From: Nocardioides jishulii
GTDB lineage: Bacteria; Actinomycetota; Actinomycetes; Propionibacteriales; Nocardioidaceae
DNA length: 64,000 bases
Assembly (NCBI RefSeq): GCF_006007965.1
Contig: NZ_CP040748.1
Location: 248,001 to 312,000, forward strand
Reading direction: 5' to 3'
Under the pieces are notes generated by a model. That model saw only the letters and a program-made list of their open reading frames with translations. It was not told where the DNA came from and ran no database searches. Below are positions 11,800 through 21,624 of this stretch, piece by piece (within the stretch, counting starts at the first letter, position 1; each line of letters begins with the position of its first letter). A program made the position numbers and the translations under genes.

Positions 11800-11816
11800 G
11801 ACGTCGCGGTCCAGAC

Positions 11817-11852
11817 CTGCCGTGAGGGCCAGTGTTTCGTGCTCCACGGCAG
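11817..11852. terminator. Probable hairpin terminator
   Basis: Arms CTGCCGTG and CACGGCAG enclose a 20-base loop 17 bp after the thioredoxin-NHL stop. The long loop makes it weaker than the other terminators here. Confidence 0.4.
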
Positions 11853-11912
11853 GGGGCACCACTCCCGGCAGAGCGCGCGGCACGGGCCGCGCCACACCCG
11901 GGAGGAAAACCA

Positions 11913-12140
11913 ATGGGACTCGGACTCGGAATCGTGCTGATCGTCCTCGGACTGATCTTCGGCCTCGGGGTCGTGAACATCCCCGGACTCGACCAGTACG
12001 TCGCCACGGAGACGCTGGGCTGGATCCTCGTCGCGGCCGGTGTGCTGTCGATCGTCCTCGGCCTCGTCATGAACAAGCAGCGCGGCGAGACCCGCCACGT
12101 CGAGGAGCGCCACGTCGACAGCCGTCGCGACGTCGTCTGA
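11913..12140 (+). CDS. DUF6458-type small membrane protein
   Basis: A 75-residue protein with two membrane helices (LGLGIVLIVLGLIFGLGVV and TLGWILVAAGVLSIVLGLVM), separated by a short extracytoplasmic GLDQYV loop, and a charged histidine/arginine-rich tail (ETRHVEERHVDSRRDVV). This helix-loop-helix pattern with GWIL matches DUF6458. GGAGGAAAA at 11901 fixes the ATG at 11913; a longer frame to 11832 has no ribosome site. Function unknown. Confidence 0.75.
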   Translation: MGLGLGIVLIVLGLIFGLGVVNIPGLDQYVATETLGWILVAAGVLSIVLGLVMNKQRGETRHVEERHVDSRRDVV

Positions 12141-12160
12141 GAAGTCGTACGCTCGAAGGC

Positions 12161-12538
12161 ATGCCCTCACCGAAGCGCATCGACGTCGACGACTTCTACG
12201 CACAGCTCCCGGAGATCGCCCGTCCACACCTGGGCCAGCTCCGGGAGCTGTGTCGCGCTTCCCTGCCTGACGCCGAGGAGGTTCTGCACTGGAACCAGCC
12301 CGCGTTCGTGCAGGACGGCACCCGCCTGGTCGCGCTCCAGGCCTTCGGCAAGCACTGCTCGCTGCGCTTCCCGACGCGCTTGTTCGCCGAGCACCGCTCC
12401 CGCGTGGAGGGTGTGGGCTACGAGGCCGGGGAGGGCTTCGTGAAGCTGCCGTACGACCGTGGCCTCCCCGTCGACGTGCTGCGCTCGCTCGTGGAGGCGC
12501 GCCGGCAGGAGTACGCCGCCACCGGCGCCGGCTGGTGA
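12161..12538 (+). CDS. DUF1801 (YdhG/frataxin-like) domain protein
   Basis: A 125-residue cytoplasmic protein of the DUF1801/YdhG group, small alpha-beta proteins sometimes described as iron chaperone-like. Visible hallmarks are the PDAEEVLHWNQPAF segment (family pattern: pxaeExixWgxPxf), CSLRFP, and the terminal GEGFVKLPYDRGLPVDVLRSLVEARRQEY. The ATG at 12161 gives the usual family length. It lies 20 bp after the DUF6458 gene and may be read from the same transcript. Confidence 0.75.
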   Translation: MPSPKRIDVDDFYAQLPEIARPHLGQLRELCRASLPDAEEVLHWNQPAFVQDGTRLVALQAFGKHCSLRFPTRLFAEHRSRVEGVGYEAGEGFVKLPYDRGLPVDVLRSLVEARRQEYAATGAGW

Positions 12539-12628
12539 GTCCCTCACGGCAGTGAGCAGGCGCTGCCCGGGCTCTATGCTCCTCGGGCTGAGTTCACGAC
12601 GCTGAGCTCATGTCGACAGGAGAAGACG

Positions 12629-12835
12629 ATGACGTACACGTCATGGGGCGAGCTGCAGGATGTCTACAACGAGACGCTGGACGCGCAGGGCGAGGTGTCG
12701 ATCGGCTCCGTGACGTTCGCGCCGTCGGAGGTCCTGAAGCAGATGAACCCTCTGGCCTACCGGGTGGGGCTCCACGACTTCGCCGAGGCCCGGGGCATCG
12801 ACACCGACGCCTTCGACGACTGGTTCATGTCGTGA
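12629..12835 (+). CDS. Small conserved-looking cytoplasmic protein, unknown
   Basis: A 68-residue acidic protein with no membrane segment or cysteine, containing SIGSVTFAPSEVLKQMNPLAYRVGLHDFAEARGI. ACAGGAGAAG just upstream of the ATG is a good ribosome site, and the stop is immediately followed by a strong hairpin, so it is a convincing stand-alone gene. The compact helical sequence contains no recognised motif. Confidence 0.7.
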   Translation: MTYTSWGELQDVYNETLDAQGEVSIGSVTFAPSEVLKQMNPLAYRVGLHDFAEARGIDTDAFDDWFMS

Positions 12836-12870
12836 ACGAAGGGCCGCACCCGGTGGGTGCGGCCCTTCGT
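12836..12870. terminator. Bidirectional hairpin terminator
   Basis: Perfect arms ACGAAGGGCCGCACCC and GGGTGCGGCCCTTCGT with a 3-base loop lie between the convergent small gene (stop 12835) and amine oxidase (stop 12885). Nearly the same stem recurs at 19590 and 50111. Confidence 0.9.
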
Positions 12871-12884
12871 CGCGTTGCCTCAGG

Positions 12885-14498
12885 TCAGGCGCTCATCACC
12901 CGGGCGTGCAGCGCCTGGACCGCGTACCGCGCGGACCAGAACGCACCGTGCTGCCAGGCCGAGATCTCCGACATCCAGTCGCCGGCGAAGTAGACGTTGC
13001 CCTGACCTTCCTGCAGCTTCTTGAAGAGTGGGGACGTGGTCTTGGGATAGGCCCACGCGCCCTCGACGTAGGGCACCTTGTGCCACGCGATGGAGAAGGA
13101 GGAGTCCAGCTCGGTGCGGTACTTGGGTCCGAAGATCTTCTCTCCCTGCGCGACGGCGCGCGCCTCGCGCTGCCGCGGGGAGAGATCGGCGTACGTACGC
13201 GCGTTGGCCCCGGTGTTGTAGTAGCCGATCATGAGCCCCTTGCGCCCGCCGTAGCCGTACGACGGGTGCCACACGTGGGCAAGATCCATGTCGGTCTCGG
13301 TGATGCCGCCGTAGATGCGGTGGTCGTCCTCCCACCAGCGCGACTTGTACTGGAGCCCGATCTTGCCGGCGGGCGAACCCGTCGCGAACTCGCCCAGCGC
13401 CGCGTCGATCTCGGTGCCCCAGTTGGTGTCCCACGTGCGCATCAGGCCGGCGGGGGCCGAGACGACCGCGAAGTCTGCCTCGATCTGCCGCTCCGGGCCG
13501 CGCTTCGGCTTGTAGGTGACCTTGACGCCTCGCGAGGTGTTCTTCACCGCCGTGACCGGCGAGTTGAGCAGCACGTTCTGCTGTCCGATGGCCCTGACGA
13601 AGTAGCTGTACGTGGTGTCCATGCCCCCGACGGGCTGGAACATCAGCATGGCCTGTTCCCAGTTGTTCTCGAACGCGAAGTACTGCCCCACCTTGCTGGC
13701 GAGCACCTCCGACGCGGTGCCGGGGCCGGGCAGCGGCGTGCCGTGCTCGTTCCAGGCCGTCGGGTACTCCGAGAAGCCGCGGTTGTTGCCGCCCGCGTAG
13801 GTGCCGTCGGACTTCAGCGCGCCGAACGAGCGCAGGAAGGCGCGCAGGTTCTCCTTGTCCTCCGCGGTCAGCTTCGCGTCGAGGGCGCCCTGGTCGGTCG
13901 CGTAGTTCAGCAGCTCGGAGGTGTAGCCGAAGACGTCCGCCTTCGCCGTGCGGTAGCGGATGGGGTTGCCCGGGGTGGCGCCGCTCTTCTCGTTGTAGAG
14001 GTAGGCGTCGGCGTTGGCGTTGGTGAAGACCTCGTACGGCACCCCGAGCTCGCGCATGTAGTCCATCGTCACCATCCACTGGGCGATGCGTCCTGCGCCG
14101 GCGTTCATGTAGACGTCGCGGTCGAAGCGCGCCGTCTGCTTGATGCCGTCGATGTCGGTCTCGGAGTCCCCGTCGCGGATGGTCAGGGTGCGGCCACCCA
14201 CGCGGTGGCGGGCCTCGAGGACCGTGACGCGGTAGCCGGCCTTCTTGAGCTCGTACGCCGTGGCGAGGCCCGCGGGGCCGCCACCGACGACGACCACCTT
14301 CTTGGACGACCGCCCCGACAGGGCGAAGTCGCTGCGTCCGGGGGGATTCCATGACTTGCTCGGGGGCTGGGCCGCGGCCGTGGGGGCGAGGCCCACCGCT
14401 CCCATCGCCGCGAACATGACTCCCGCGCTGGAGCCGGCACCGACCGCCTGGAGGAGGCTGCGCCGCGAGACGCCCGACAAGACTTCTTCTTCGACCAT
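12885..14498 (-). CDS. Tat-exported flavin monoamine/L-amino-acid oxidase
   Basis: A 537-residue FAD-dependent amine oxidase. The N-terminus MVEEEVLSGVSRRSLLQAVG carries a twin-arginine signal followed by a hydrophobic stretch to about residue 45, so export as a folded flavoprotein is expected. The dinucleotide motif VVVVGGGPAGLATAYELKKAG (seen near residue 67), the LEARHRVGGR motif and a C-terminal VYFAGDWMSEISAWQHGAF flavin-contact segment are typical of monoamine/L-amino-acid oxidases, which convert amines to imines with release of hydrogen peroxide. The ATG at 14498 has GGAGGACCTCCC-like context (upstream AGGACC). It is divergent from a secreted RidA-like gene, which suggests the imine product is handled outside the membrane. 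Substrate unknown. Confidence 0.85.
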   Translation of the reverse strand: MVEEEVLSGVSRRSLLQAVGAGSSAGVMFAAMGAVGLAPTAAAQPPSKSWNPPGRSDFALSGRSSKKVVVVGGGPAGLATAYELKKAGYRVTVLEARHRVGGRTLTIRDGDSETDIDGIKQTARFDRDVYMNAGAGRIAQWMVTMDYMRELGVPYEVFTNANADAYLYNEKSGATPGNPIRYRTAKADVFGYTSELLNYATDQGALDAKLTAEDKENLRAFLRSFGALKSDGTYAGGNNRGFSEYPTAWNEHGTPLPGPGTASEVLASKVGQYFAFENNWEQAMLMFQPVGGMDTTYSYFVRAIGQQNVLLNSPVTAVKNTSRGVKVTYKPKRGPERQIEADFAVVSAPAGLMRTWDTNWGTEIDAALGEFATGSPAGKIGLQYKSRWWEDDHRIYGGITETDMDLAHVWHPSYGYGGRKGLMIGYYNTGANARTYADLSPRQREARAVAQGEKIFGPKYRTELDSSFSIAWHKVPYVEGAWAYPKTTSPLFKKLQEGQGNVYFAGDWMSEISAWQHGAFWSARYAVQALHARVMSA

Positions 14499-14863
14499 GG
14501 GAGGTCCTCTCGTCACACGGGCCCGACGCCGGCCGTGCTCCCGGAACCCGTACCGGAGGCCAGCGTCAGCGCCCGGCATGAACGTAGGGAGACGACGTCA
14601 CGGCGGTGGGTCTCGCGGGTTTCCGACGGGTCACAAAAGTGCGGTGGGCCGACCGCAGGAGGGCGCGTTCTTCTCCTCTATATGCGTCAGAGGTCAGCCG
14701 CGTCCCAGAGCGCGTCAGGAGCTGAAACAAACGTTCGTTGCAGACGTCCAGATGACATCGCCGCGTTACGCGGGTGTGACCTGGCCTCCCTAGCGTCCAC
14801 CCATGGCCGACCCCTCGGCCATGCCCTCGCGAGTCGAGGGCCGCACTGTTCTCGGAGGCATGG
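14499..14863. promoter_or_regulatory. Divergent promoter region with TetR-like palindrome and tandem leader hairpins
   Basis: This 365-bp gene-free region separates the oxidase and RidA genes. It holds a near-perfect 14-bp palindrome AACAAACGTTCGTT at 14726-14739, of the kind bound by TetR-family repressors. The RidA 5' side has two adjacent hairpins: CATGGCCGA/TCGGCCATG (14802-14823) and CCCTCG/CGAGGG (14824-14840). A CTCTATAT element at 14675-14682 could be part of a promoter. The regulator is not encoded nearby. Confidence 0.45.
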
Positions 14864-15526
14864 ATGAAGACTGCAAGCAAGATGGCCACCGCCGTCGTCG
14901 CCACGGTGGCGCTGGCCGTGCCCAGCACCGTCTGGGCGCACGACCGGCTGTTCCGCCCAGACCCGAAGGAAGCCTTCTCGTTCATCACGGGTGACACCGC
15001 GAGCATCGCCGATGGAGTGGCCTTCGGGAAGGACGTGGCCTGGTACAAGTCCTCCGGGCTGGGGCCCTCGGCGATGAACACCGCGGGCGCCACGGCTGAG
15101 CAGCGCTACATCCCCACCGACGTCTTCCCCGGCGGCGTCCTGCCGCCCGGCGTGACGATCACCGAGGCGCAGGGCATCAACGTCCTCATGCGCATCGGCG
15201 AGAACCTGGCCAAGGCGGGACTCTCGTACGACGACGTGGTCTCGATGCGGGTCTTCCTGCAGAACCCCGAGGGCGAGGAGAAGATGGACTTCGCCGGCTG
15301 GAACCGTGCCTACCGCCAGTACTTCGCCAACACGAACCTCAAGACGGGCGACACGATGCAGGTGCCCCTGGGCAACGTGACGGGCCCTCCCCGCGTCGTG
15401 AACCCCGCGCGTCCCTCCCGGTTTGCCCTGGAGATCGAGAACCTGCCCGTCAACGGGTGGCTCGTCGAGGTCGAGGTCGACGCGGTCTACCCGGAGAAGT
15501 CGAAGCACAAGCCGAAGAAGAAGTAG
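14864..15526 (+). CDS. Secreted RidA/YjgF-family protein
   Basis: A 220-residue RidA-like protein with an N-terminal Sec signal peptide (MKTASKMATAVVATVALAVPS, cleavage after VWA). The RidA core follows: GINVLMRIGENLAKAGLSYDDVVSMRVFL is the central helix-strand, and the C-terminal FALEIENLPVNGWLVEVEVDAV matches the family's final strands. RidA proteins hydrolyse reactive imine/enamine intermediates to ketones. Cytosolic members are ~130 residues; this one has an export signal, insertions and a lysine-rich tail (KSKHKPKKK). The canonical imine-binding arginine cannot be placed with certainty. CGGAGG precedes the ATG. Divergent pairing with the exported amine oxidase is the main clue to its role. 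Confidence 0.78.
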   Translation: MKTASKMATAVVATVALAVPSTVWAHDRLFRPDPKEAFSFITGDTASIADGVAFGKDVAWYKSSGLGPSAMNTAGATAEQRYIPTDVFPGGVLPPGVTITEAQGINVLMRIGENLAKAGLSYDDVVSMRVFLQNPEGEEKMDFAGWNRAYRQYFANTNLKTGDTMQVPLGNVTGPPRVVNPARPSRFALEIENLPVNGWLVEVEVDAVYPEKSKHKPKKK

Positions 15527-15572
15527 CGCGACAGGGTCGATCCGCGCCGTTGGGTCTCTCGCGCAGCCCGGC

Positions 15573-15627
15573 ACAAGAACGCGGTGACTTCAGGTCACCT
15601 GGTGACCTCAAGTCACCGCGTTCTTGT
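15573..15627. repeat. 55-bp near-perfect palindrome of four GGTGAC units
   Basis: The element begins ACAAGAACGCGGTGACTT and ends with its reverse complement AAGTCACCGCGTTCTTGT; the only mismatch pair lies near the centre. Inside are four alternately inverted copies of GGTGACYT. It lies 46 bp after the RidA stop, where it could act as a terminator, but the arms are far longer than the other terminators and the internal four-fold repetition is unusual. Confidence 0.85.
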
Positions 15628-15662
15628 CCGCGCTCGCCACCGCCGACGCCCGCCCGCGGCTG

Positions 15663-15905
15663 TCAGGGCACGGCTACTGAGCTGAGCAACGCCTCCCGCA
15701 GCCGCTGCGGAGTAGCGACTGCGCGCCGTCGAGGCGTTGAGCCCCAGCAGCTCGGCCGCCTCGGTGACGGTGAAGCCGTCCCAGTGGATCAGCATCACGA
15801 GCTCGCGGTGGGCGGCGTGCAGCCGCAGCACGGCGTCGCGTACGGCGGTGGCCTCCGTGTGGTCCTCGACCGCCGGCGCGATGTGGGCCCGGAGACGATC
15901 ACTCA
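15663..15905 (-). pseudogene. ECF sigma factor remnant (region 4)
   Basis: The minus strand reads NALSDRLRAHIAPAVEDHTEATAVRDAVLRL, then HRELVMLIHWDGFTVTEAAELLGLN and ASTARSRYSAA: a clear sigma-70 region 4 helix-turn-helix of an ECF sigma factor. The frame then breaks; the expected ending RLREALLSSVAVP followed by TGA (15663) is in another frame. Region 2 and the start codon are absent. It is therefore a decayed 3' fragment rather than a working gene. Confidence 0.7.
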
Positions 15906-16342
15906 GGGCGTTGGGCGTCCGGTGGGCACGCTGGCCGCGTCCACGCGGGCGCTGAGGTCGATCCCCACGATCTTGCCGAGGGCGCTGGTCTCGAGCTCGT
16001 CACCAGCCAGTCGCCGCTACTGCTCAACTGGAGGCATGGCCGGCCCTCCGTCCTCCGTCCCCCGGGAGTCGGCAATGGCTCGTCGGGTGCCGATCGCGGC
16101 GTAGCCGTAGGTTGCTCAGGAAGGCGGATCGCCACGTCGGGCGCCGGCTCCTGCTCGGCCATCAAGTTCGCACGCGACAGCGGCGCGCCGCTGGCCTGCT
16201 TCCCGTCTGCGAGTACCGGTGTCACCGAGAACTCCATCTCGCACGCGCTGCCAGGCTCTGCTGCCCACGGCACCCAGGACGGTGTCGGCAACAGTCCGCT
16301 GGGAGGGGATATGGGGAGCTCGACAGGGTGGAGAGGTGTCAC
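15903..16342 (-). pseudogene. Fragmented membrane/anti-sigma-type protein remnant
   Basis: Several frames on the minus strand contain protein-like pieces in order: PTPSWVPWAAEPGSACEMEF then VTPVLADGKQASGAPLSRAN; in another frame ATYGYAAIGTRRAIADSRGTE; and finally DELETSALGKIVGIDLSARV ending at a TGA (15903). They resemble the C-terminal extracytoplasmic part of the membrane proteins encoded beside ECF sigma factors. Multiple frameshifts separate them. Together with the sigma fragment they mark a decayed locus bordering the island gene. Exact edges are uncertain. Confidence 0.45.
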
Positions 16343-16437
16343 GTGCTGGCCCTAGCGATCGCACGAAGACTGCGGCAAATCCTCTCCGCTCCCTGTCTGA
16401 GACTGGGCACTGCATGGAATCGCTCGACTGAAGTTGC

Positions 16438-19400
16438 TCATCGCCCCCGGTCGGACATGAAGAAGATCTCGGTCGGCGACACGATGCGAAGGGAGCCTGC
16501 AGGAACTGCCTTTGCCAGGTAGACGCTTCCACCTGCCTGAAACACGGGTTCGCAGAACGCCTCTGGCTCGAGAGCTAGAAGAATGACAGGTCCATGGCGC
16601 TGCGCAGTCCTAATCGCGAGGTGTGGGTCGCTTGAAAGGTGAACCCACTGACGTCCCATGCTCTTGAGTCCCGCCCCGCTAGTGAAAATGCTACTGAGGT
16701 TGCGGGACGAGGTTCCGTGGTACAACGTTGGTCTGCTACTGGCCTCTTGGTACGAGATCTCAACAGGGCGCGTGTGACCGTAACGAGCGCGGATCTTCTT
16801 TCCCCGCAATTCGAACCTGGGCTCGTCAATTGCCGCAGCAACGGTCCAAATCTCGCTGCTGTCGGTGCGTAGTCCGCTGGCATATAGGGAGTCTGAAACG
16901 GCGGCTATGTAGGCCCAGCCTCCACGATCAAGAGTCACGGATGAACCGTGTCTGAGTTCGTAAGCCATTGCCCGAGAAAGGTGCCTCCGCCGGGCATCGC
17001 TAATATTCTTTAGGCCGTCATCTTCGTTTATGGCGGTACCGCGGCGCACAGACCACGTATGTAAAAGGTGGGAAGCCATGTCTCGTATGGCTCGTTCTTT
17101 GGAATCCCGCGAAAGCCACTCGAGCAGTCCCTCGCCGTGCGAGCGTAATGCTTGGTCGCTACTTGGGGCAGTGAGCAGGCCTACTGCCCGTGAGAGGGTG
17201 GCAGCTTCCCACGCGCGCACAAGGCTTCCGTGGTCGACTGCTACTCCGCGTCTGCCCAATTCGTGCCTGTATTGATGAACGAGATGAAGGCGAGTCTTCC
17301 AGCCATGTTCATCAATTGGTAAGAGCGGTCTATCGTCAAGCAACTGCGCCAACTCTAGGCCGACGGGTCGCCAGCCACAGGCTTCAAAGTCTACGGCCAC
17401 CACCGAGTTGTCGGCGCCGACGATCCAGTTGAGCGGATGAGCGTCTCGTCGCGGCAGCAATAGCGGGTCGGGTCCGAAGGTTTTCCACCATTCTTCAAAG
17501 ACTTCCCCTGCATTGCCAACCTGCAAGCCATTCTTCAACCATCGACCAAAGTCCTTCTTCCATAAGTCTCGCCGCACTGAAACCGGATTAGATCTTTGCG
17601 AAAGTAGTTCTGAGGCGTGGATAATAGCAAGATATTGCACGACGGCGTTGAGGATGCTTGAGCGAGTTCCGAGAGGTTGATCCCGCATTGCTTCAACAAG
17701 GATCTCGCCTTTGTGGAACCGCCTAGCTACCAGAATCTCACAACCCTTCGCACGCAAGGAGTCGTCCGCCGGAAGCTGACTCTTCGCCAATGTGGTGGGG
17801 ACTGAGAACCTTGATTCGAGACCGAGCTGTTTCAAATGCCGTTCGAGTCTTGAGACTCGTTCGGTCTCGCGGTCCGCCAGATCATTGAGTGTAGGTTTGA
17901 AGATGAACGTCTCTGAAATAATTCCAGACGGATCTTCGGCAAGATAAACTCCGCTGCGCCCACCCAGATGTTTGCGATCTACCTCTCTGCTTTCAAGGGC
18001 GCGCTGCGCCGCCAATTCATAGAGGCCGGCGAGGTTCCCCACTGAAGCGTGCCGCAAGGCTTCCGCAGCGCCGCTGTCCCAACCCTTCTTGCGAAGTTCA
18101 TAAATAATGGGCTTTGGTAGATCTGAACCCAGCGCCTCAAGTTCGCGCGCGAGCACCAACAAAGGCGTTGGCCACGCTTGGTCGAAGTTTGCAAGTCTTA
18201 GAATATCTTCGATCGCGGCTAGAAGATGGGACCGGAGCGAGGTCGAGCGAAACAGTTGGAATCTGTCGACCGCGTTTTGGAGGCGACTCTCGGGATCGGT
18301 TAGCGGGCCCTGGTCACTCGTCCCTTCGCGAATCTGGACGGCATCTTTCAAGTGGCCTACCTTTTCGGAACTCCATGCACGCCCAACGAGCCGAGCTGCT
18401 ATTTCGCTTTTCGTGGAAGCGGAAATACGACGAATTAGGGCCGAGGAACGCAAGCGTGGCGATAGAGAGTCCAACTGGTGGTCAATGGCCTCCAACAGCT
18501 CCTTGGTTGCCACGCGATCTTGACGCGCCCATTCCTGGGTTTGAGAGCCGACCCCAAACGGCGTCCGAAACCCACGCACCTTTAGGGCATTTGATGGCGG
18601 CAGGGACAAGAAGGCTCGGATTGTGGCGACACGGGCTGCAATCACGGGGTCAGAAACGGCTTTTAGGTTTTCGCACTGAGCTGCAGATCGCGCACGAAAC
18701 TGTTGGCGTCCTGCCTCAGTTTGTGCCGCCTGTGACAACCGCAGCCATGCTTCCGCAATGTGGGAGGACAGCGCTGCAGTGTCGTGTGCGTCCGATCGGC
18801 TCTGCAAACCGACTAGTTCTCGCAACGAATCCGGGTCTCCAGATGCGTCATGAACTCTCAATAAGGCTTCAGCAAGATAGTTGTAGGCATCTGCGTTTTG
18901 ATTTCCGCCGTCCAGTGAGGCCCGAATTCGTTCCACCATCTCGACGGCTTGAGCGGCAGAGAATGCGCCGTGCCGTGATTGCAGCACCAGTGCGACGCCC
19001 AAACGCCCTTGGAACTGGCGCAACTGGCGATGGCGAATCAGGTGTCGATTCTCAATTACTGAGCGCATGTATAGCTCGGACACTCGAAGCCCTCGGAGGA
19101 ATGTCAAGGGCTCTTGCCAGTTCACGCTTTTTGCCCGGCTGTAGAGGGCAAGTGCGATGGCTTCGCGAAGGCGTAGAAGGCGTTTGTCTAAACCCTTGCG
19201 TCGGTCTAGCGTCTCAGCAATTTGTGAGGGGTGCGAACTAATCCAGTGTTCAAGGAGGAGGAGTTCTAGAATCTCCCAGTACGTACGCCGTGTTGCGCTA
19301 TCCATCAGGCGAGGGAAGGCGCGGATTGCAAACCGGTCATCGGTTAGATAGGCCAACCATTCTGTCCCGTAACGGGTGGAGAAGGCCTCGAGATATGCAG

Positions 19401-19503
19401 AGTCCACAGGCTCGCCTAGCAGGCTTAAGAGGTGCGTCGCCTGTGGGCAAAGATGCTGAACGTGACGACCGGTGGCTGCGGCTACCGTCTGATGAGTCCC
19501 CAT
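16438..19503 (-). CDS. Helical domain - kinase-like domain - KptA/Tpt1 RNA 2'-phosphotransferase fusion
   Basis: A 1021-residue single protein. Residues 1-500 are mostly alpha-helical, rich in Leu/Ala/Arg, possibly TPR-like repeats. Residues ~511-770 have a protein-kinase/aminoglycoside-phosphotransferase fold: glycine-rich GGRSGVYLAED (514-524), a lysine in FIFKP (K536), the catalytic loop RRDAHPLNW with D687 and N692, and the metal-binding DFE at 705-707. Residues 842-1015 are a KptA/Tpt1 domain, which removes an RNA 2'-phosphate using NAD+: LSRAMAYELRH (R851, H852), IRARYGH (904-910), YHGTS (H929) and GRQWVHLS (H955) match the conserved motifs. The DNA is visibly lower in G+C than all neighbours, with codons such as ATT, TAT and TTT common, indicating horizontal transfer. 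It is alone, beside decayed genes. Likely acts on RNA; whether the kinase targets RNA, protein or a small molecule is unknown. Confidence 0.82.
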   Translation of the reverse strand: MGTHQTVAAATGRHVQHLCPQATHLLSLLGEPVDSAYLEAFSTRYGTEWLAYLTDDRFAIRAFPRLMDSATRRTYWEILELLLLEHWISSHPSQIAETLDRRKGLDKRLLRLREAIALALYSRAKSVNWQEPLTFLRGLRVSELYMRSVIENRHLIRHRQLRQFQGRLGVALVLQSRHGAFSAAQAVEMVERIRASLDGGNQNADAYNYLAEALLRVHDASGDPDSLRELVGLQSRSDAHDTAALSSHIAEAWLRLSQAAQTEAGRQQFRARSAAQCENLKAVSDPVIAARVATIRAFLSLPPSNALKVRGFRTPFGVGSQTQEWARQDRVATKELLEAIDHQLDSLSPRLRSSALIRRISASTKSEIAARLVGRAWSSEKVGHLKDAVQIREGTSDQGPLTDPESRLQNAVDRFQLFRSTSLRSHLLAAIEDILRLANFDQAWPTPLLVLARELEALGSDLPKPIIYELRKKGWDSGAAEALRHASVGNLAGLYELAAQRALESREVDRKHLGGRSGVYLAEDPSGIISETFIFKPTLNDLADRETERVSRLERHLKQLGLESRFSVPTTLAKSQLPADDSLRAKGCEILVARRFHKGEILVEAMRDQPLGTRSSILNAVVQYLAIIHASELLSQRSNPVSVRRDLWKKDFGRWLKNGLQVGNAGEVFEEWWKTFGPDPLLLPRRDAHPLNWIVGADNSVVAVDFEACGWRPVGLELAQLLDDRPLLPIDEHGWKTRLHLVHQYRHELGRRGVAVDHGSLVRAWEAATLSRAVGLLTAPSSDQALRSHGEGLLEWLSRDSKERAIRDMASHLLHTWSVRRGTAINEDDGLKNISDARRRHLSRAMAYELRHGSSVTLDRGGWAYIAAVSDSLYASGLRTDSSEIWTVAAAIDEPRFELRGKKIRARYGHTRPVEISYQEASSRPTLYHGTSSRNLSSIFTSGAGLKSMGRQWVHLSSDPHLAIRTAQRHGPVILLALEPEAFCEPVFQAGGSVYLAKAVPAGSLRIVSPTEIFFMSDRGR

Positions 19504-19589
19504 GGGCTCAGGCTATTGGACCGGCAGCGTTAAGGGTTCGAACACACGTAGACAGGATCCAAGGCGATGTCCTGTAGCCACCGCGTACG

Positions 19590-19634
19590 AACGCAGAAGG
19601 GCCGCACCCACCGGGTGCGGCCCTTCGTTGCGTT
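19590..19634. terminator. Strong hairpin terminator after fadE5
   Basis: Arms GAAGGGCCGCACCC and GGGTGCGGCCCTTC with a 3-base loop, extended by AACGC/GCGTT, lie 9 bp after the fadE5 stop on the minus strand. It insulates the island gene downstream from fadE5 transcription. Confidence 0.9.
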
Positions 19635-19642
19635 GCGTCAGA

Positions 19643-21523
19643 TCAGAACGCAGCCTCGTCGATCTCCATGATCGAGTTGTCGGTCGCCTGGGCGATCGCG
19701 AGCTCGGAGGAGATCTTGGGGAGGTTCTGCGTGGCGAACCAGGACGCCGCGGCGACCTTGCCCTCGTAGAACGCCTTGTCCTTGGCGGAGACGTCGCCGC
19801 CCAGCTTGGCCAGCGCGACCTCGGCACCCTTGAGCAGGAGCCAGCCGCAGATGACGTCGCCGAGCACCATCAGCACGCGGGTGGTGTTGAGGCCGACCTT
19901 GTAGATGTTCTTGATGTCCTCCTGGGCGGACATCAGGTCGTTGATCATGTGACCGACCAGCGTGTTGGCGTCCTCGAGGGCCTTGGCCAGCAGGCCACGC
20001 TCGACCTTGAGGCGCTCGTCGGCGTCGGCGGCGCCGATGAAGGCCTCGATCTCCTTGGCCAGGTGGCCCAGGGCGGCGCCCTGGTTCTTCACGATCTTGC
20101 GGAAGAAGAAGTCCTGGCCCTGGATCGCGGTGGTGCCCTCGTACAGGGTGTCGATCTTGGCGTCGCGGACGTACTGCTCGAGCGGGTACTCCTGCAGGAA
20201 GCCGGAGCCGCCGAAGGTCTGCAGCGACTCGGTGCCGAGCAGGACCCACGAACGCTCGGAGCCGTAGCCCTTGACGATCGGGAGCAGCAGGTCGTTGACG
20301 GCGACGGCCATCCGGGCCTCGTCGGAGTCGGAGCGACCCTCGTGCTCGGCCAGGTAGACCTGGTCCTGCCAGCTGGCGGTGTAGAGCACCAGCGAACGCA
20401 TGGCCTCGGCGAACGCCTTCTGGGTCATCAGCGAGCGACGCACGTCGGGGTGGTGCGTGATGGTGACGCGCGGGGCGGTCTTGTCGGCCGACTGGGTGAG
20501 GTCGGCGCCCTGGACGCGGGACTTGGCGTACTCGAGAGCGTTCAGGTAGCCGGTCGACAGCGTCGCGATGGCCTTGGTGCCGACCATCATGCGGGCGTTC
20601 TCGATGACGTCGAACATCTGCGCGATGCCGTTGTGCACCTCGCCGACGAGCCAGCCCTTGGCGGGCTCGCCGCCACCGACCTGCGGGTCGCCGAAGGTGA
20701 CCTCGCACGTGTTGGAGACCTTGATGCCCATCTTGTGCTCGACGTTGGTCACGTAGATGCCGTTGCGCTCACCCGTGAGCTCGCCGGTCTCGTGGTCGAA
20801 GTGCCACTCGGGCATCCAGAAGAGCGAGAGGCCCTTGGTGCCGGGGCCGCCAGCGCCCTCGACGCCCTCGGGGCGGGCGAGGACCAGGTGCATGACGTTC
20901 TCGGTCATGTCGTTGGTGGCGGAGGTGATGAAGCGCTTCACGCCGGTGACGTTCCACGAGCCGTCCTCGTTGGGGGTGGCCTTCGTGCGGCCGGCGCCGA
21001 CGTCGGAACCCGCGTCGGGCTCGGTGAGCACCATGGTGCAGCCCCACTGGCGCTCGACCATGATCTCGGCGATGCGCTTGTCGCGCTCGACGCCGTTGGC
21101 GTTGTTCCAGATGACACCGGCGAACGGGGCGCCGGCGGCGTACATCCACACGGGGGCGTTGGCGCCGAGCACCATCTCGCCCAGGGCCCACACGATGGAC
21201 GGCGGGGCGGGGGTGCCGCCGAGCTCCTCACGGATCTGCAGGCGCCAGAACTCAGCGTCCATCCAGGCCTGGTAGGACTTCTTGAACGTGTCGCTGATGG
21301 GGGCAGCGTGGGTCTTCGGGTCGAAGACCGGCGGGTTGCGGTCGCTGTCCTCGTAGGAGGCGGCGAGGTCCTCGCGCGAGAGGCGCTCGACCTCCGCCAG
21401 CACCTCACGAGCGGTCTCGCCGTCGACCTCGGCGAAGGGTCCCTGGCCAAGGATCTCGTCGCGGCCGAGCACCTCGAAGAGGTTGAACTCGATGTCGCGC
21501 AGGTTGCTCTTGTAGTGGCTCAC
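19643..21523 (-). CDS. fadE5: Acyl-CoA dehydrogenase, FadE5-type
   Basis: A 626-residue acyl-CoA dehydrogenase that catalyses the first, FAD-dependent step of beta-oxidation. It starts [20 protein letters not shown], the signature opening of the mycobacterial FadE5 group. Family motifs include [18 protein letters not shown] (flavin/substrate loop), [20 protein letters not shown] and [16 protein letters not shown]; a C-terminal AcdC-like helical extension brings it to the ~610-residue length of FadE5. GTG at 21523 follows AGGTGGGG and fits the family start; upstream codons do not. A palindromic operator-like site about 100 bp upstream resembles one before etfD, the membrane acceptor that reoxidises electrons from such enzymes. 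Symbol given by family resemblance. Confidence 0.85.
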
Positions 21524-21624
21524 TGCCCCACCTGTTCCTATCCGTTCTCGAACCACGCCTCGGTTGGGGCGGGGTCTGTCGTCCACGTGAGATGAAGGAT
21601 GCTCCCGCGGTGATCCCTGCGGTG

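Follow-up and report, generated by a model that had tools for sequence, protein, structure and literature searches.

A single intact gene of Nocardioides jishulii encodes a protein in which a helical N-terminal domain, an APH/choline-kinase-fold kinase and a KptA/Tpt1 domain follow one another. This three-part kinase-KptA enzyme looks undescribed. PADLOC has no model for the fusion protein itself, and we found no paper on an APH-KptA fusion architecture in a literature search that covered reviews incompletely, so that a prior mention is possible. The gene is foreign, its kinase and KptA domains recur together in varied hosts, and a lysine conserved in ordinary KptA proteins is replaced by an acidic residue in every fused protein compared. 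Possibly the fusion is an RNA- or nucleotide-modifying machine, maybe one directed against phages.

The Gene and Its Genomic Setting

The gene lies on the minus strand of the window, i.e., the whole 64,000-nucleotide stretch of contig NZ_CP040748.1 that was analyzed and to which all positions refer (Table 1). Its open reading frame starts with ATG at 19503, stops at 16438-16440 and contains no internal stop codons. A plus-strand reading frame at 19502-21595 was rejected as a gene, as G+C content by codon position supports the minus-strand frame instead.

The fusion gene is horizontally acquired and of foreign origin. It has a G+C content of 56-59% compared to approximately 71% for the window, and a GC3 of 0.58 against approximately 0.93 in genuine neighbors. 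The site between its two conserved neighbors is variable: in one relative (G028) the aligned flanks are only 24 bp apart, leaving the site nearly empty, and in two others (G023 and G005) different DNA occupies it. These findings bear out the original prediction of a foreign gene with lower G+C and decayed surroundings, the decay being represented by the broken remnant of an ECF-sigma-factor-like gene. The window's own island holds no further recognised defense gene. There was no sign of carriage by phages or plasmids, since tblastn against plasmids and phages gave, among the matches listed, standalone KptA only, and no relative of the kinase was found in viral contigs.

Table 1. Positions in the window of the fusion gene, its domains and key residues, and its surroundings.
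Feature	Position	Strand	Basis
Whole three-domain gene, 1021 aa	16438..19503	-	Intact ORF; 22 distinct homologues with the same kinase-KptA order
Residues 1-505, alpha-solenoid/TPR-like helical domain, putative sensor or scaffold	17989..19503	-	AlphaFold2 model, VIA matches
Residues 489-821, APH/choline-kinase-fold kinase domain	17041..18039	-	Structure comparison of models, Foldseek
K536, beta3 lysine of kinase	17896..17898	-	Invariant in 31 kinase domains, including archaea
D687-A-H-x-x-N692, catalytic loop ([RK][RK]DAHxxNW)	17428..17445	-	Invariant in 31 kinase domains
D705, metal-binding Asp (DFE/DLE; here D705-F-E707)	17389..17391	-	Invariant in 31 kinase domains
Residues 836-1011, KptA/Tpt1 domain (ART superfamily)	16471..16998	-	PF01885 and VIA fold match
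R851-H852, first two residues of catalytic tetrad	16948..16953	-	Invariant in 18 fused proteins; = Cth R18-H19 (PMC6333775)
E894, replaces conserved Lys (Tko K63 / Cth K66 / Sce K69)	16822..16824	-	Comparison of fused and standalone KptA
R896, third tetrad residue	16816..16818	-	Invariant in 18 fused proteins; = Cth R68
H929 of HxT NAD+-binding motif	16717..16719	-	Invariant in 18 fused proteins
R951, fourth tetrad residue	16651..16653	-	Invariant in 18 fused proteins; = Cth R121
Variable insertion site	11800..19586	.	Sits between two conserved neighbors; comparison with G028, G023, G005
Thioredoxin-like gene, conserved neighbor flanking the site	ends 11799		Named from sequence
Acyl-CoA-dehydrogenase-like gene, conserved neighbor flanking the site	19643-21586	-	Named from sequence
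Broken ECF-sigma-factor-like remnant adjoining the fusion gene	15727..15912	-	tblastn match of the intact G023 protein at 80% identity, with frame changes

Domain Folds and Catalytic Residues

An AlphaFold2 model of the full protein (mean pLDDT 88, pTM 0.81) folds into the three predicted domains. Residues 1-505 are all helical (pLDDT mostly 80-94) and resemble TPR superhelices with VIA Z of 12-13, a likeness that may reflect merely a common helical arrangement.

The kinase region of this model (residues ~491-820) superposes on APH-family kinases with a Z of 16; when modeled alone (pLDDT 92), the domain reaches 19.1 to 3csv (APH) and 18.7 to 8agy (corramycin phosphotransferase), and Foldseek returned APH and amicoumacin kinase matches (E~3e-6). 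The Pfam APH profile (PF01636) stays below a match in the window protein, and matches three of 18 close homologues (best 4.4e-7) and a distant homologue from G441 (2.4e-6). The motif GGRSGVY spans residues 514-520. The kinase shares its fold and the catalytic K, D...N and D with the APH/choline-kinase superfamily (e.g., corramycin phosphotransferase, APH(3'), MTR kinase), but differs in its own signature [RK][RK]DAHxxNW and in its extensions, helical at the N-terminus and KptA at the C-terminus. With all catalytic residues in place, it appears from its sequence to be a working enzyme.

The C-terminal domain is certainly a KptA. The PF01885 profile, whose cut-off is 26 bits, scored the window protein at 65.5 bits (E=8e-18) and also matched all 18 homologues, and Tpt1/KptA chains in the PDB matched with E down to 1.7e-23. 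The modeled domain (residues 836-1010) superposes on TkoKptA (9ld3) with a VIA Z of 15.8 and 1.8 Å over 172 residues, in the two-lobe Tpt1 fold. Further KptA motifs are present (R905-A-R-Y-G-H910, H929-G-T, H955-L-S), and the serine and basic residues of the RNA lobe are kept. Both lobes, the R-H-R-R tetrad and the NAD-site histidine are thus common to the fusion and to KptA/Tpt1 proteins such as TkoKptA and CthTpt1, at 34% identity; in contrast to these, the fusion has a kinase and a solenoid attached, carries Glu/Asp in place of Lys63/66, and scores under the NCBIfam equivalog cut-offs (best 107.9 bits for 'RNA 2'-phosphotransferase', cut-off 231). Hence the three-domain layout, the complete-looking kinase core and the KptA domain that had been proposed all stand, and every motif named for them is there (GGRSGVY, K536, D687...N692, DFE 705-707, RH, RARYGH, HGT and HLS).

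The position of E894 separates fused from standalone KptA proteins: it is Glu or Asp in all 22 distinct fused proteins, compared to Lys or Arg in 52 of 52 distinct standalone ones (acid 0/52). The replaced lysine contacts the transferred phosphate and is conserved, yet it is reportedly dispensable in RslTpt1 and SceTpt1 (PMC6333775). Given these two enzymes, the change may be without effect on the chemistry; it may also reflect only one or two events. The fused KptA is probably not a plain 2'-phosphate eraser, and the fixed change provides a simple sequence test to tell fused from ordinary KptA proteins.

Distribution and Evolution of the Fusion

Twenty-two distinct intact or near-intact proteins contain the kinase and then KptA in the same order (L103 and L056 are a single record and enter the count as one); 21 come from Actinomycetota or close kin and one from a Chloroflexota MAG. 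The fusion is sparse, occurring in five of 395 genomes of the class. Finding relatives in genome contigs required a kinase alignment, as a scan with the window protein alone gave none. The groupings in the kinase and KptA trees are largely the same, which indicates that the unit travels whole; this agreement and the recurring order suggest that the two domains act and move together. The kinase also exists without KptA, and no conserved operon partner was found for the fused proteins.

In each of the three domains, dN/dS is 0.09-0.33, i.e., purifying selection acts throughout. This selection and the many independent homologues rule out an assembly artefact. Three outcomes set beforehand as refuting the prediction (a non-kinase fold, missing KptA residues and such an artefact) were checked, and none occurred.

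Defense-Like Genes Near Some Homologues

We compared 114 genes around 19 fused loci with 114 control genes using PADLOC at E<=1e-15. Genes at the fused loci matched 61 PADLOC models and control genes matched one generic model, with the control regions being a small ad hoc sample and a single-gene match being no proof of a complete system. Matches near the fused loci include a type IIG RM, a type II REase and MTase pair, and a PDC-M37B/DolB-like protein. Strong defense neighbors were found at four of the 19 loci, and an OLD/AriA-like ATPase flanks one further locus. The context of some homologues agrees with the suggested role in defense, but most are singletons beside unrelated genes. Some KptA-less kinase relatives adjoin NACHT-WD40, TIR or SIR2 genes. 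The APH-domain effectors of vWA-MoxR/VMAP conflict systems, as described in the passages searched of Kaur et al. (2020; PMC7159879), are active APH-type kinases of actinobacterial conflict systems; the fusion differs in being a stand-alone gene, and those passages mention no KptA fusion.

Proposed Mechanism and Alternatives

Our preferred, if tentative, reading is that the fusion is a mobile single-gene, three-domain enzyme of biological conflict (phage or mobile-element defense) that would phosphorylate a target and then use NAD+ on the phosphate. The N-terminal alpha-solenoid would sense a product of invasion and gate both enzymes. The APH-type kinase would put a phosphate from ATP on a target hydroxyl, most likely that of RNA or a nucleotide ribose, given the RNA-lobe residues retained in KptA, and the KptA-type ADP-ribosyltransferase would then apply NAD+ to the kinase-added phosphate. 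This sequence of steps is chemically precedented, since the canonical KptA of S. coelicolor can phospho-ADP-ribosylate 5'-phosphate RNA (PMC6582358). With a fixed Glu/Asp in place of the phosphate-contacting lysine, the second step, release, would probably be slowed or altered. The outcome could be a phospho-ADP-ribose adduct left behind ('phosphorylate, then cap') or, through repeated cycles, the consumption of NAD+ and ATP. A point against this reading is that the substrates of known APH-fold enzymes are mostly small molecules. More doubtful is the specific version in which the kinase phosphorylates an RNA or nucleotide hydroxyl and the altered KptA stably attaches ADP-ribose, making the protein an immune effector; such a relay, if true, would amount to a new modification of RNA or nucleotides in two steps and probably to a new conflict system. 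KptA occurs widely among bacteria, and its natural role or substrates outside fungal splicing have been described as unclear (PMC6333775, PMC9095486). Its conserved fusion to a kinase suggests that the phosphorylated acceptor is produced locally and renders the substrate question directly testable.

The acid fixed at the phosphate-contact site would also suit a KptA turned into another ADP-ribosyltransferase or an NADase, in which the new Glu aids attack of a hydroxyl or water on NAD+ while the kinase or the solenoid regulates it. Such a protein would recall DSR2, in which a helical sensor is coupled to NAD+ depletion; DSR2 and similar NAD+-consuming single-protein defenses, like the fusion, join a large helical region to an NAD+-using domain, and separate TIR or SIR2 genes adjoin some KptA-less kinases. 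However, DSR2 uses a SIR2 NADase and has no kinase, and the fusion retains both the kinase catalytic residues and all phosphate-binding tetrad residues, the latter needless for a plain NADase; we regard this conversion as rather unlikely. Reversible RNA 2'-phosphorylation, with the kinase writing and KptA erasing, had been proposed from the archaeal kinase ArkI. The ArkI/KptA system for the tRNA U47 2'-phosphate is a precedent (PMC9095486) that conceptually pairs the same two activities, and the kept tetrad, HxT histidine and RNA-lobe residues would serve an eraser. ArkI, however, is encoded on its own and belongs to the AQ578 protein-kinase-like family, whereas the sequence and fold of the fusion kinase point to the APH/choline-kinase clade; ArkI was absent among its listed structural and sequence matches, although such an absence does not exclude a link. 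The analogy itself is thus weakened. The write-and-erase proposal loses further support through the fixed lysine change, although two Tpt1 enzymes reportedly do without that lysine, through the occurrence of the kinase without KptA, and through the futile cycle that a writer fused to an eraser would run unless gated separately; it is unlikely.

In structure, the kinase comes nearest to corramycin phosphotransferase, APHs and amicoumacin kinase. With many of the hosts being antibiotic-producing actinobacteria, the kinase might instead phosphorylate a compound and KptA ADP-ribosylate the phosphate, for resistance or self-protection. The fused genes nevertheless have no recurring biosynthetic or transporter neighbors, and a large solenoid and a retained RNA lobe would be superfluous for a drug, which makes this role quite unlikely. 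Fungal-type tRNA splicing activities include both a 5'-kinase and Tpt1, and the suggestion of RNA repair would have the kinase heal 5'-OH ends and KptA strip 2'-phosphates after nuclease attack. Known 5'-OH polynucleotide kinases, however, are P-loop enzymes, and none is known to have the APH fold. KptA does occur in RNA repair (PMC9503650), but no ligase or phosphodiesterase adjoins the fusion gene, and the genome, although it does encode 2H proteins, is without RtcB and has RNA_ligase matches below the curated cut-off only; this part of the original prediction has lost ground and is very unlikely.

Domain architecture and conservation of the fusion protein

The fusion gene is an open reading frame of 1021 codons without interruption. 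Its C-terminus matches PF01885 (E = 8e-18), identifying a KptA/Tpt1 domain whose top PDB match is TkoKptA (E = 1.7e-23). Against the NCBIfam equivalogs for RNA 2'-phosphotransferase, the protein's scores fall well short of the cut-offs. An AlphaFold2 model built from 18 full-length homologues (mean pLDDT 88, pTM 0.81) predicts a helical solenoid, a kinase and a KptA domain, the last superimposing on TkoKptA at 1.8 Å across 172 residues. Folded by itself (pLDDT 92), the kinase resembles the APH/choline-kinase superfamily (Z 19.1 versus 3csv; 18.7 versus corramycin phosphotransferase), with glucosamine kinase, maltokinase and choline kinase among lower-ranked structural matches. The modelled helical region matches TPR superhelices (Z 12–13), a likeness that may reflect just a common helix arrangement.

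The first full-length homologue, from the distant actinobacterial relative G441, shares all three domains (25% identity, 925 columns), with APH and PF01885 both above cut-offs. When 84,980 species genomes were scanned with a kinase profile, 28 kinase loci emerged; 17 of these encode the fusion in a single ORF (994–1139 aa) and come from Streptomyces, Micromonospora, Actinoplanes, Nocardiopsis, several Microbacteriaceae, an Acidimicrobiaceae MAG and a Thermobaculum MAG (Chloroflexota). The PF01885 survey of the class, where 5/395 genomes (window genome counted) have the fused type, added three distinct members, including one with a shorter open frame (L104, 765 aa). This gives 22 distinct fused proteins in all (L103, the same record as L056, being counted once). 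The window protein is closest to that of a Chloroflexota MAG (L043; 46% overall, 50% in the kinase), which points to inter-phylum transfer. Cryobacterium sp. Y57 carries a broken family member at a contig edge, its kinase and KptA portions being out of frame with each other.

The fusion is one unit, every part of which is maintained. Single clades hold 18 of 19 fused proteins in the kinase tree (support 100/99) and 21 of 22 in the KptA tree (99/98), with largely matching inner groupings; the G441 protein sits unplaced on a long branch, and an AU test did not reject a single origin (p-AU 0.29). Among close pairs, dN/dS is 0.09–0.33 in the N-terminus, kinase and KptA taken separately. The kinase catalytic residues K536, D687, N692 and D705 are invariant across 31 kinase domains, two Methanothrix records among them, as are the R851/H852/R896/R951 tetrad and H929 across 18 fused proteins.

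An acidic substitution in fused KptA domains and possible mechanisms

A single KptA alignment position (Tko Lys63 = Cth Lys66 = Sce Lys69) completely separates the two types: it is Lys/Arg in all 52 distinct standalone KptAs, whereas every one of the 22 distinct fused KptAs carries an acid there (Glu in 21, Asp in one), possibly through one or two events. In CthTpt1, Lys66 hydrogen-bonds the transferred phosphate (PMC6333775). The change hints at altered chemistry but does not prove it, because the equivalent Lys is reportedly non-essential in RslTpt1 and SceTpt1 (PMC6333775) and, according to the title of PDB 9lda, TkoKptA K63A was crystallised with 5'-phospho-ADP-ribosylated DNA.

The interpretation that strains the data least is a gated two-enzyme relay, with putative substrate, sensing and defence role: the kinase would place a phosphate on a hydroxyl, and in the KptA domain this phosphate would then react with NAD+. 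For S. coelicolor KptA, RNA bearing a 5'-phosphate is a substrate for ADP-ribosylation (PMC6582358), and KptA-like toxins with this activity have been suggested (PMC11833690). Retention of the tetrad and the RNA-lobe Ser argues that the acceptor remains a phosphate of RNA or nucleotide type. The acid at the Lys63 position argues for a change in either the release step or the acceptor. In our judgement, the strongest of four rivals to the relay is that the KptA domain is an altered ART/NADase, followed by a write-and-erase pair formed by kinase and KptA; drug modification by the fusion protein is less likely, and RNA repair least.

Genomic associations of fused and KptA-less kinases

Helical N-termini, usually longer, also occur in the 12 of 31 kinases that lack KptA; the kinase is therefore able to work without it. 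In Kribbella and Nocardia, such genes adjoin NACHT-WD40 and LCAT-like genes in a tail-to-tail layout kept in three genomes of two genera (L064 and L027 are the same record), possibly a multi-gene conflict system. An earlier account of actinobacterial conflict systems notes active APH kinases (PMC7159879). In a Methanothrix MAG, the KptA-less helical-kinase gene is preceded on the same strand, at a distance of 146 bp, by a TIR-domain gene (PADLOC PDC-S35, 1e-55); in an Acidobacteria MAG, such a kinase gene has a SIR2+TPR gene as its convergent neighbour.

Around 19 fused loci, 114 neighbour genes matched 61 PADLOC models (E ≤ 1e-15), compared with one generic model for 114 control genes. These counts are of single-gene matches, and the control set was small, being picked ad hoc in a few of the actinobacterial genomes analysed. 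The table includes the strong cases (L055, L056, L104, L057). Comparison of fused-locus neighbourhoods found no conserved operon partner.

Locations of domains, loci and associated features
Feature	Location	Remarks
Fusion gene	window 16438–19503 (−)	
All-helical solenoid	residues 1–505	AlphaFold2 model
Kinase	residues about 489–821	AlphaFold2 model
KptA domain	residues 836–1011	AlphaFold2 model
Type IIG RM	L055, directly downstream of fused gene	2e-264
Type II REase+MTase pair	L056, near fused gene	
PDC-M37B/DolB-like	L104, near fused gene	
OLD/AriA-like ATPase	L057, near fused gene	
KptA-less helical kinases	L027:3748–7938; L028:8984–13075; L064:8936–13126; L067:9001–13485	beside NACHT-WD40/LCAT-like
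KptA-less helical kinase	L065:4202–9047	Methanothrix MAG
KptA-less helical kinase	L060:9101–11179	Acidobacteria MAG
Broken fused-family member	L061:164–1566	Cryobacterium sp. Y57
Variable insertion site	window 11800–19586	
Amine-oxidase/L-PSP-like block	window 12900–15526	G023, C1:1921533–1924155
Palindromes	window 12838–12888; 19596–19646	
Split standalone KptA	G748, C9:49143–49639	

Insertion site in the window genome

The fusion gene has a G+C content of 56–59% versus about 71% for the window, and a third-position GC of 0.58 versus about 0.93 in genuine neighbours. The segment containing it lies between two conserved neighbours; its aligned flanks are separated by 24 bp in the relative G028, and G023 and G005 have other DNA at the site. 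A broken ECF-sigma-like remnant adjoins the gene. The amine-oxidase/L-PSP-like block to its left occupies another position in G023, a close relative, and has therefore been relocated. Near-identical terminator-like palindromes (88% identity) bracket the segment carrying the fusion gene together with the amine-oxidase and L-PSP-like genes, and are possible recombination points. The window genome has no second KptA, no RtcB and no RNA_ligase match above cut-off. In G748, of the same genus, a standalone KptA is split over two reading frames, which suggests a decayed kptA.
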